Assembly (NCBI GenBank): GCA_003279535.1
Contig: QCHO01000004.1
Span: forward strand, 24,310 to 88,309
Direction of reading: 5' to 3'
Source of the DNA: Prochlorococcus sp. AG-402-C22
GTDB taxonomy: Bacteria > Cyanobacteriota > Cyanobacteriia > PCC-6307 > Cyanobiaceae
DNA length: 64,000 nt
Translations under genes and position numbers: made by a program
Notes under the pieces: model-generated
Told to the model about the DNA's origin: nothing
The model's database searches: none
The model's input: only the letters and a program-made list of their open reading frames with translations
Shown: piece after piece, positions 17,984 to 22,315 of the stretch
How positions within the stretch are numbered: the first letter of the stretch is position 1
How the letters are laid out: every line of letters begins with the position of its first letter

Positions 17984-18424
17984 TCACTTTACTAACCAGA
18001 TAGGTATTGTATCTAATTCTTTGCCAGTAAAAGAGGCAATAAAAATTGAACAAATCAAACTTATTACAATGATAATAAATAAAAGAAATAACGAAAACAA
18101 TTCCCCATTTGAAAAAGGTCTTCTATTCCCTACTAAATTTTGATTATTTGAATCGATTATTAAATTATTTAAAACTTGAGTATTATTCTTAATCTTAGAT
18201 TTTTCCTTTAGTTTGTCATCATATATTTTCCTCAAATTACTATTATTCAAATTTTCATAAGCTTCCAAAACTTCTTGGAATTTACTTTTAGCTTCATCTA
18301 TTTCTAAAGAAGTTGTATCAGGATGCAACTCGATGGAAAGTTTGCAAAATGCCTTTCTTAATTCATGATTTGAGGCATTTTCATCTACACCTAAAATTTT
18401 GTAATAAGAAATTTTTCCTTTCAA
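17984..18424 (-). CDS. J-domain protein with C-terminal transmembrane segment
   Basis: J-domain YYKILGVDENASNHELRKAFCKLSIELHPDT; C-terminal hydrophobic helix. Confidence 0.88.
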   Translation of the reverse strand: MKGKISYYKILGVDENASNHELRKAFCKLSIELHPDTTSLEIDEAKSKFQEVLEAYENLNNSNLRKIYDDKLKEKSKIKNNTQVLNNLIIDSNNQNLVGNRRPFSNGELFSLFLLFIIIVISLICSIFIASFTGKELDTIPIWLVK

Positions 18425-19229: not shown

Positions 19230-20423
19230 TTATTTTTTTGATAATCTTTTAGCAACTTTATCCCCAAACTTTTCTTTTAAAGTTCTTAATTTATTTATAA
19301 CTTTTTTTGGATTTATATGGCCTTTTAAAACTTTTAATAATTGGCCTTCAGAAACATCCTCATCGAGTAAATTAGCATTAGATCCTGGGAACCAATGACT
19401 TCCATTCCCAAGCAGTTGATATCTAGCTCTTGCAAATCCTTCCATATCCAACCAATCTATTAAATTTGAAAGCCATAGCAAAACGGGAATATTAATATTC
19501 CCAGGAGTATATTCCCAACTCGGTAGATTTCTATTCCAATTTTGATACCACTCTAAACCTAAGGCATTAATCGATTCCTGCCTTAATCTACCTATTATCT
19601 TTGGAACATACTTTTCGGATTCTGATAACAATGAAACAGCTTCTAAATGCAGGTCAAAATCTGCCTCTTTTGCAATCCCCACACTAAGGGTATGGACATT
19701 TGTATTTCTTAAACAAAAAAGATCATTAAAAACTATGGGATGAAGTGGTCTACAAAGTTCCAACATTTTGTTTGAGGGAGTATGAAGATGTCCTCCTTTA
19801 TCAGTGGGACTTATTATAAAAACCCCAAGATCATACTTATTTGCTAAATTTATAACCTTTGTATTTTCTTGATTTATGAAATACCAGTGCAAATTTACAT
19901 AATCAAATAAGTTTGTTGAAATAGCCTTCTGAATGAGCGAAGATTTTCCATGGGTCGAAAATCCAATAGATCCAATTAGATTTTCTTTTTGCAAATTCCT
20001 CAAAATTTCAATACAACCTCCATTTCTAATGGTCTGATGTAAATGTTCAACTGTGTTAATGCCATGTATTGCTAATAAATCAATTTTTTTAACTTTCAAT
20101 TTTTCAATACTTGACATAACATCTCCCTCAAATATTTTAGGATCACTATTTGGAGGAATCTTTGTTTGAATTATATTGGGGATTTTTTTCGAATTTTTAA
20201 AACCCATTCCTAATTGCACCTCAGAAGTTCCATAGTACTTAGCTGTTTCTACATGATTTAAGCCATATTTGTTTGCCAGATTTAATATATTTTCTACTTT
20301 ATTTTGTTCTTGATATGAAATCTTAGAAAAATCTAATTGATCCCAACTTTTTTGAAATCTCATACCACCCAAAGATAAAATAGGAATCTTAAGATTAGTT
20401 CGGCCAAACCTACGATATTGCAT
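19230..20423 (-). CDS. Aldo/keto reductase family oxidoreductase
   Basis: MQYRRFGRTNLKIPILSLGGMRF, HVETAKYYGTSE, KKIDLLAIHGIN. Confidence 0.9.
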   Translation of the reverse strand: MQYRRFGRTNLKIPILSLGGMRFQKSWDQLDFSKISYQEQNKVENILNLANKYGLNHVETAKYYGTSEVQLGMGFKNSKKIPNIIQTKIPPNSDPKIFEGDVMSSIEKLKVKKIDLLAIHGINTVEHLHQTIRNGGCIEILRNLQKENLIGSIGFSTHGKSSLIQKAISTNLFDYVNLHWYFINQENTKVINLANKYDLGVFIISPTDKGGHLHTPSNKMLELCRPLHPIVFNDLFCLRNTNVHTLSVGIAKEADFDLHLEAVSLLSESEKYVPKIIGRLRQESINALGLEWYQNWNRNLPSWEYTPGNINIPVLLWLSNLIDWLDMEGFARARYQLLGNGSHWFPGSNANLLDEDVSEGQLLKVLKGHINPKKVINKLRTLKEKFGDKVAKRLSKK

Positions 20424-20433
20424 CTTTTTGGAA

Positions 20434-20793
20434 TTAATGCTTATTCATTCTTGGTGGTTTTCCAAATGATTGAAACATATCCCTATCAAGACTATTCTCT
20501 AAATCATCCAATTCTTCGAACTTTACCCAGTGAATACAATCAACAGGGCAAGTATCTATTGCTTCCTGTATCACATCAACACTATCTCCATCTTGTCTTA
20601 TTGCACGGCTTCTGCCATGAAATTCATCAACTAAGAAAGTATTTGAAGCCACGTGTACACAGTATTTACAACCAATACACTTAGCTTCATCAACCCATAC
20701 AGCTTTTTCAGCTAATTGACCACCTAGTACAGGCTCAAAGCCTGTAATTTCTATATTTTTTTCAAAATTATCAAATGGATCGGTAAAATCCAT
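20434..20793 (-). CDS. Bacterial-type [4Fe-4S] ferredoxin (Fed7-like)
   Basis: CIGCKYC...CPVDC cluster motif; next to DUF1257 gene. Confidence 0.88.
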   Translation of the reverse strand: MDFTDPFDNFEKNIEITGFEPVLGGQLAEKAVWVDEAKCIGCKYCVHVASNTFLVDEFHGRSRAIRQDGDSVDVIQEAIDTCPVDCIHWVKFEELDDLENSLDRDMFQSFGKPPRMNKH

Positions 20794-20802
20794 AATTCGG
20801 CA

Positions 20803-21195
20803 TTAATTATCCCACTTGGTTAAGACCAATTCGATTGAACCGTCATTTTGGTTTTTTTGTTCTACTATTTGATAACCATCCTCTTTTGTTTTAGAAATAA
20901 TTGTTTGATAAGCATACATTTGAGTAACTTTAGAAATAAATCTTTCAACTGGAATCTCAAATTTCCATAAATCCAGATCAGTAACTAATTCATAAGTATT
21001 TGAATTATTGTCCCATTTAAATCCAACTTTAGTATCACCAGGTAAATTCATGCTTATATCGACAGCCGTAAACTTACCTCTATAACCTTTAACAAACTTT
21101 TCTTCTTGATTGATGGTATAACCTAGGTTATTTAAGGCCTTAATTAATGGCTCTGCTTCTTTAAGATGCGTTTTAATAGTACTAAAATGTGACAT
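20803..21195 (-). CDS. ycf35: DUF1257 protein (Ycf35)
   Basis: MSHFSTIKTHLKEAEPLIKALNNLGYTI... C-terminal VTQMYAYQTIISKTKEDGYQIVEQ typical of Ycf35. Confidence 0.85.
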   Translation of the reverse strand: MSHFSTIKTHLKEAEPLIKALNNLGYTINQEEKFVKGYRGKFTAVDISMNLPGDTKVGFKWDNNSNTYELVTDLDLWKFEIPVERFISKVTQMYAYQTIISKTKEDGYQIVEQKNQNDGSIELVLTKWDN

Positions 21196-21397
21196 TAGAT
21201 TCTTTGTTAAATTGTTTTAAGTTTTCATTTTGATTAGAGATGAAAGCATCAGATGTTTTAGCCTTAACTGTTACTTCGCCGAGAGCATCTTCGAGATTTT
21301 TTGTAGCTTCATTACATGAATGACCTGTAAATCCCTCGACAGTCTCTTCAACTCTTCCGTCTTGATGAATTTTGAATCTCAATGTTTTTTGAGGCAT
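21182..21397 (-). CDS. DUF2997-family small protein
   Basis: MPQKTLRFKIHQDGRVEETVEGFTGHSCNEATKNLEDALGEV; likely start at 21397 rather than the ORF-track 21466; overlaps ycf35 by 14 nt. Confidence 0.8.
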   Translation of the reverse strand: MPQKTLRFKIHQDGRVEETVEGFTGHSCNEATKNLEDALGEVTVKAKTSDAFISNQNENLKQFNKESNVTF

Positions 21398-21547
21398 TAA
21401 ATTCAAGTACCGAGTACTTTTTACTTTATATAGAATAACGAAAATTTTTTGTTTCAGTTGGTACAAGTTAATTAATTTTAATTTTTATATTGAATATCTG
21501 ATAAATAAATTTTTTCGATAGCTTCCTGAAAAAAAAATTAAAGCTAT

Positions 21548-22315
21548 TTAATTATAAAAACCTTGCATCCCCATTGAATCTAGAGCAGTTTTTGCTTCTT
21601 CCATAACGGATGGCTCTTTATCGAAAAGAGCTATTTTGGTACATTCATCAACGAAACATTCTTGAAATGTATTATTTAATTTTTCAAACAACCTACACAA
21701 TGACCAAATGCAATTACTCCTGACACCTGATTCATTATCTATTTTTAAACTTATTAAAAGCTGTTCTGCTGCTAATTCTGCGTTTTTGGAAGAAACATTT
21801 CCAATTTCAGCTAAAGAACTAGATGACCATAGCCTTACTGCAGCTACGTCATTTTTTAAAGCATTTATTAATGGCTTCAAAACAATTGGGTTATCATAAT
21901 TAGCTAAGCTCCATGCAGTAGCTCTTCTGACATACGCGTTATCATCAGTCTCCAAAAGACTGACAAGTTTCTGGACCGCGCTGGGGCATGGATTACGGCC
22001 TAAAGCATATACAGCACTCATTCTCTCAACAGGACAAGGTTGATCAAGTAATGGTAATAAAAGAGGGAAAGATCTTGGATCTCTATATTCACAAAATATT
22101 CTTAAGCCCTGTATTCTCTCTTCTCTGTTACCTTCTAGCATTTTTAAAGCTTCATTGCACTCTTGAGTTATATTTAAACCTTTTGAAAAATTATCTTCAT
22201 CAATTTGCTCTAAAGGATCTATTTCAATCTCTAAAGCCAATTCTCTGGCCAAAACATCTGGGTCAACTGCAATTTCAGCTAAGCTTTCTTTGTTAGGATC
22301 CTTATTTTTTGTCAT
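21548..22315 (-). CDS. HEAT-repeat protein
   Basis: Repeated VRRATAWSLANYDNPIVLKPLINAL-type HEAT/PBS-lyase units. Confidence 0.85.
   Translation of the reverse strand: MTKNKDPNKESLAEIAVDPDVLARELALEIEIDPLEQIDEDNFSKGLNITQECNEALKMLEGNREERIQGLRIFCEYRDPRSFPLLLPLLDQPCPVERMSAVYALGRNPCPSAVQKLVSLLETDDNAYVRRATAWSLANYDNPIVLKPLINALKNDVAAVRLWSSSSLAEIGNVSSKNAELAAEQLLISLKIDNESGVRSNCIWSLCRLFEKLNNTFQECFVDECTKIALFDKEPSVMEEAKTALDSMGMQGFYN

Follow-up and report, generated by a model that had tools for sequence, protein, structure and literature searches.

The window considered here, the whole analysed stretch of 64,000 nucleotides from Prochlorococcus sp. AG-402-C22 (source assembly of 1.17 Mb, 81% complete), carries four genes transcribed from the minus strand in the order HEAT, DUF2997, ycf35, fed7, according to the ORF calls and Pfam matches, and all four products exceed the Pfam cut-offs. 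The first gene (21548-22315) encodes a HEAT-repeat protein of 255 aa (PF13646, 9.4e-24), a candidate member of the IaiH type. After a gap of 150 nt it is followed by the gene for a DUF2997 protein of 71 aa (21182-21397; PF11211, 2.4e-18, 66.2 bits against a gathering cut-off of 24.1) with one family-invariant cysteine, C28; the likely start is the ATG at 21397, the mechanical ORF opening earlier, with a TTG at 21466. This gene overlaps by 14 nt with ycf35 (20803-21195), which codes for a DUF1257 protein of 130 aa with the N-terminus Met-Ser-His (PF06868, 2.4e-30, 105.2 bits against a gathering cut-off of 22.2). A gap of 9 nt (20794-20802) separates ycf35 from the gene for a 119-aa single [4Fe-4S] ferredoxin of the Fed7 type with five cysteines (20434-20793; Fer4_13, 1.3e-14), and after a further 10 nt there begins a gene for an aldo/keto reductase (19230-20423, minus strand; PF00248, 6e-17), which is possibly co-transcribed with fed7. 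The preliminary description of this DNA had reported the order of the four same-strand genes and the overlap of the DUF2997 and DUF1257 frames, and both observations are confirmed.

Among 244 Cyanobacteriota genomes surveyed (114 of the photosynthetic class and 130 others), the trio DUF2997-ycf35-fed7 was found in 111 of the 114 photosynthetic-class members and in no genome outside this class. The three genes follow one another directly on the same strand in 109 of the 111, and in the remaining two a gap of 1.7-1.9 kb sets DUF2997 apart. The arrangement seen in the window is far beyond chance. The lack of linkage in other cyanobacteria had been named in the preliminary description as the outcome that would speak against its proposal, and the linkage is present. 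The trio has been lost as a unit in the other three photosynthetic-class genomes, namely G177 (3.0 Mb) and two members of a single genus, G147 (2.8 Mb) and G183 (3.0 Mb). On the other hand, the HEAT gene, previously regarded as part of the cluster, has to be removed from it: it occurs in 110 of the 114 photosynthetic-class genomes, but it adjoins the trio only in family f1 (picocyanobacteria) and in G036 (25 of 25 genomes listed), is unlinked elsewhere, and is retained in all three trio-less genomes. Thus, it is a local neighbour rather than a core member. The HEAT protein of the window scores below the cut-offs of the NCBIfam equivalogs for the CpcE/CpcF/NblB lyases (best 25.2 bits against 220). 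It possesses the HEAT repeats that are a feature of IaiH, which binds IscA and stabilises its cluster, and both are short HEAT-repeat proteins conserved in photosynthetic cyanobacteria, which makes IaiH a candidate likeness. In G036 an aldo/keto reductase gene is also found downstream of the trio, with one gene between them (L205 5830-7014).

The ferredoxin of the window has cysteines at positions 39, 42, 45, 82 and 86, i.e. the Fed7-type pattern CxxCxxC...C with a fifth cysteine four residues on. Their spacing is identical to that in Fed7 of Synechocystis (C53, C56, C59, C96 and C100, of which C100 is additional and has been proposed to be redox-active; PMC4284462), in agreement with the resemblance to Fed7 suggested earlier. 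The linkage of the three genes is not new, since it has already been published as "cluster g", with a variant g' in Prochlorococcus (Cassier-Chauvat & Chauvat 2014, PMC4284462). The window contains duf2997-ycf35-fed7 contiguously on one strand at 20434-21397 and shares with cluster g the three genes, their order and the five-cysteine spacing of the ferredoxin, whereas the HEAT gene upstream and the aldo/keto reductase gene downstream are extra in the window. According to the same source, Synechocystis Fed7 is dispensable and is required to tolerate iron limitation and oxidative, metal and salt stress, its gene is upregulated by high light and by limitation for iron or inorganic carbon, and its two-hybrid partners are FtrC and the DnaJ protein Sll1384 (PMC4284462), partners and phenotypes being known for Synechocystis alone. 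Moreover, ssl1263, ycf35 and fed7 are SigD-dependent together (PMC8875361). These published phenotypes and the co-regulation, together with the restriction of the trio to genomes of the photosynthetic class, support the earlier view of a conserved stress unit kept in a streamlined genome and tie this unit to oxygenic photosynthesis. No linkage of DUF1257/DUF2997 to an AAA+ ATPase was found in the available part of the cluster g account (PMC4284462), and our literature search returned no reported function for the Ycf35 or DUF2997 proteins themselves, as the preliminary description had stated. About 2 kb from fed7 the window also encodes a DnaJ-domain protein whose C-terminal part includes a hydrophobic stretch (17984-18424); it was rejected as a candidate for the Fed7-binding DnaJ, as it lies outside the published fed2-dnaJ-hisZ context.

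Sequence and fold comparisons of DUF1257 and DUF2997 yielded no function. The AlphaFold2 model of Ycf35 is confident (pLDDT 91, pTM 0.82) and reveals an alpha/beta domain, for which the PDB offered no match with E < 0.001 (best TM about 0.4), while a structure search of a viral library gave a single strong match, to an unnamed protein. The model of DUF2997 is weak (pLDDT 66) and had no structural match. Profile comparisons were marginal, linking DUF1257 to BMC shell proteins (E 6e-4) and DUF2997 to copper chaperones (E 0.07). In the alignment of the DUF2997 family the residues G14, G25, C28 and G40 are invariant; Ycf35 of the window has no cysteine at all. Among 198 distinct DUF1257 proteins, located by residues 19 onward, 194 have Met-Ser-His at the expected start; in three others the sequence is Val-Ser-His, the valine corresponding to a GTG codon, and the last is out of register. 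The start followed by Ser-His is therefore essentially invariant across phyla, with the His at position 3, or at position 2 after removal of the methionine. Such invariance is unusual and suggests that the N-terminus is functional.

The two smaller genes of the trio form a unit that is also carried by viruses. In 15 of 15 phage records with DUF1257, comprising the Prochlorococcus T4-like phages P-SSM2 (L002), P-SSM5 and P-SSM7 (L003) and marine single-cell viruses, DUF2997 lies just upstream of DUF1257 on the same strand. Among 80 viral contigs (L207-L286), 77 contain the overlapping DUF2997-ycf35 pair and the other three end at the contig edge; neither Fed7 nor AAA+ was found in the available stretch of any of the 80. 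These contigs are retrieved in a pattern search by a phage copy of Ycf35, whereas the Ycf35 of the window retrieves none. The viral proteins fall into a single clade, which clusters with Ycf35 of picocyanobacteria (96/93), its exact placement being unsure because of long branches. The pair of P-SSM7 is flanked by hli genes and psbA, and a ferredoxin gene lies farther on. The occurrence of the pair in phages without Fed7 indicates that DUF2997 and Ycf35 belong together as a unit and are of use even where Fed7 is not carried with them. The pairs in cyanophages are annotated as hypothetical.

A different candidate partner emerges outside the Fed7 operon. In a scan of named genomes selected by DUF1257 alone, 58 of 80 loci are of the photosynthetic type, all with DUF2997-DUF1257-Fed7, and the other 22 lack Fed7. 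A Ycf46-type AAA+ ATPase is encoded within 6 kb in 16 of these 22 and in only one of the 58 Fed7 loci, L097 (p 4e-11). The typical order in the loci without Fed7 is AAA-DUF1257-DUF2997 on one strand, with ends that touch or overlap by 0-4 nt. The AAA+-linked loci come from records named Myxococcota, Bacillota, Nitrospinota, Proteobacteria, Planctomycetota, Verrucomicrobia (Verrucomicrobiota), Anaerolineae and Obscuribacterales, and the same grouping is found on cyanobacterial plasmids. In the non-photosynthetic Cyanobacteriota, the AAA+ is present in 38 of 38 genomes with DUF2997 and in 7 of 92 without it (p 5e-26, which is not a probability for independent events, as the genomes are related). 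The preliminary description had proposed that Ycf35 and DUF2997 may be the partner or target of the ferredoxin; in the light of these data the conserved unit stands, while the ferredoxin does not appear to be its defining partner, since the pair occurs without Fed7 in cyanophages and beside the AAA+ in many phyla.

Other recurrent neighbours of DUF1257, DUF2997 and the AAA+ are Hsp70 with GrpE and HEAT/WD40 or pentapeptide repeat proteins; FHA proteins are among the neighbours as well. These loci have AAA+ ATPases together with themes of repeat proteins, radical SAM or Hsp70 in common with the MoxR-vWA / FtsH ternary conflict systems (PMC7159879). They differ from them in that the AAA+ of the non-Fed7 loci is Cdc48-like, of the Ycf46 type, and accompanied by DUF1257/DUF2997; neither vWA nor MoxR was seen among the selected neighbours scanned. 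In several phyla the neighbours of DUF1257/DUF2997/AAA+ repeatedly include a small radical-SAM protein (PF13353; L106, L110, L136, L081, L050, L051). DUF2997 seemed to be fused to longer proteins in G044 (L048) and G026 (L049), but these are GC-rich open frames and the fusions were rejected. A plasmid of Treponema succinifaciens encodes a divergent DUF1257 protein among phage tail and baseplate genes (L004 5001-5408).

If the pair acts with an AAA+ ATPase in the photosynthetic cyanobacteria as well, that ATPase should be encoded elsewhere in their genomes. No Ycf46-type AAA+ was found beside the window genes or in the source genome (81% complete), and all eight genus mates have one AAA+ and one DUF1257 each, unlinked. 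In a tree of the AAA+ proteins calculated by a quick method, the cyanobacterial copies fall into three clades. The ycf46-operon clade (type C) has DUF1257 adjacent in 8 of 8 cases, and in the type B clade DUF1257 usually lies beside the ATPase gene. The third, the orphan clade, which we take to be Slr0480-like, lacks an adjacent DUF1257 in the neighbourhoods examined, and it includes the single AAA+ of picocyanobacteria (SH-aLRT 93). Ycf35, in turn, is the DUF1257 protein without an adjacent AAA+. In the ycf46 operon (L194, L195, L197, L198, L199, L202), a gene for a 113-127 aa protein (not seen in L199) comes first, the AAA+ gene second, and a DUF1257 paralogue is encoded directly downstream of ycf46 in six of six genomes. 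Its composition matches that of the Synechocystis operon slr0373-slr0374(Ycf46)-slr0376, which responds to lack of iron, to high light and to oxidative stress, so that its inputs overlap with those of fed7 (PMC7496141; Jiang 2015 cited there). Judging from the gene order, Slr0376 would be the DUF1257 paralogue. Unlike the trio, this operon includes neither a ferredoxin nor DUF2997.

The orphan AAA+ and the trio are present and absent together. The former occurs in 108 of 110 trio genomes (the exceptions being G105 and G229) and is missing from all three trio-less genomes, G177, G147 and G183 (association p 4e-5); these joint absences amount to about two independent events, as G147 and G183 belong to one genus. 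In the reduced, trio-less genome of G183, the AAA+ gene of the ycf46 operon and the adjoining DUF1257 gene are both broken by stops (L201). In 86 of 113 genomes there are as many copies of AAA+ as of DUF1257 (rho 0.80). The type C ATPase does not follow the distribution of the trio, being present in trio-less G177 and missing from picocyanobacteria, which have the trio; it was therefore rejected as the partner of Ycf35. Elimination and co-occurrence thus make the orphan AAA+ the most likely counterpart of Ycf35.

We propose, with a probability of roughly 45%, that Ycf35 and DUF2997 serve a widespread Ycf46-type AAA+ machine as accessory subunits, that Fed7 was attached later as a redox element, and that marine viruses acquired the pair from this machine. 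According to this scenario, the two proteins would be an obligate pair of small subunits acting with the ATPase; their role would probably be that of adaptors, either presenting or releasing a substrate or adjusting the activity of the enzyme. Oxygenic cyanobacteria would have come to encode one copy of the pair apart from the ATPase and together with Fed7, which may feed the iron or redox state into the machine through its cluster and fifth cysteine in high light, low iron or low inorganic carbon. The ATPase would then act in trans, and would most likely be the member of the orphan Ycf46-like clade, the sole such ATPase left in Prochlorococcus. Gene order establishes the linkage of the families to the AAA+ and the cohesion of the pair and of the trio; the complex itself, the adaptor role, the choice of the ATPase and the input from Fed7 are what we infer from gene order and co-occurrence. 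Against this reading, Fed7 operons generally lack an AAA+ gene next to ycf35, the reported two-hybrid partners of Fed7 are not AAA+ proteins (PMC4284462), and Ycf46 proper has a DUF1257 protein of its own, so that Ycf35 may by now serve a different purpose.

An alternative is a redox module centred on Fed7, in which Ycf35 and DUF2997 would exchange electrons directly with the ferredoxin, be acted on by it or assist its assembly, and the AAA+ link would apply to their paralogues only. The fixed gene order in 109 of 111 trio genomes, the common SigD control (PMC8875361), the invariant cysteine of DUF2997 and the phenotypes of the fed7 mutant with the Fed1-FtrC-Fed7-glutaredoxin pathway (PMC4284462) are all in accord with it; however, the pair exists without Fed7 in cyanophages and many other lineages and the Ycf35 of the window is cysteine-free, and we regard this module as rather doubtful. 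Were the HEAT protein IaiH, all four genes could supply or repair Fe-S clusters under iron stress, which would fit the stabilisation of the IscA cluster by a HEAT protein, the near-universal HEAT gene in photosynthetic-class genomes with its adjacency in f1 and G036, and the need for fed7 in low iron (PMC4284462). The HEAT gene is, however, unlinked in most cyanobacteria and kept in G147 and G183 after loss of the trio, which renders such a role very unlikely. Finally, the loci with AAA+, Hsp70, HEAT/WD40 and radical-SAM proteins could be chaperone-like antiviral systems and the phage pair a counter-defence, as the Hsp70, GrpE, WD40, FHA and radical-SAM neighbours and the carriage on plasmids and phages resemble the themes of NTPase conflict systems (PMC7159879). 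We consider this highly improbable, given that the Fed7-type copies of cyanobacteria occur almost universally, are regulated by stress and are missing where photosynthesis is missing, that neither vWA nor MoxR appears among the neighbours scanned, and that the pair of P-SSM7 lies beside hli, psbA and ferredoxin genes.

Ycf35 and Ycf46 have long stood as orphans of plastids and cyanobacteria. If the two belong to one AAA+ machine, two orphan genes are reduced to one testable complex, with a prediction of the ATPase to be pulled down. It is tempting, if on balance unlikely, to extend the proposed AAA+ machine further: Ycf35 and DUF2997 would be dedicated subunits of the orphan AAA+, Fed7 would couple it to the iron and redox response, plastids would have kept ycf35 and ycf46 as its orphans, and cyanophages would encode the pair to take over the machine of the host. 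Both ycf35 and ycf46 are missing from several red algal plastids (PMC5940233), which is consistent with a joint function and is not proof of it. Relative to the literature searched, the AAA+ link, the matching of the paralogues and the viral pair are new. The neighbourhood of the picocyanobacterial AAA+ gene is conserved (L189-L193) and, with the genes named by eye, looks like yidC-AAA-serS.
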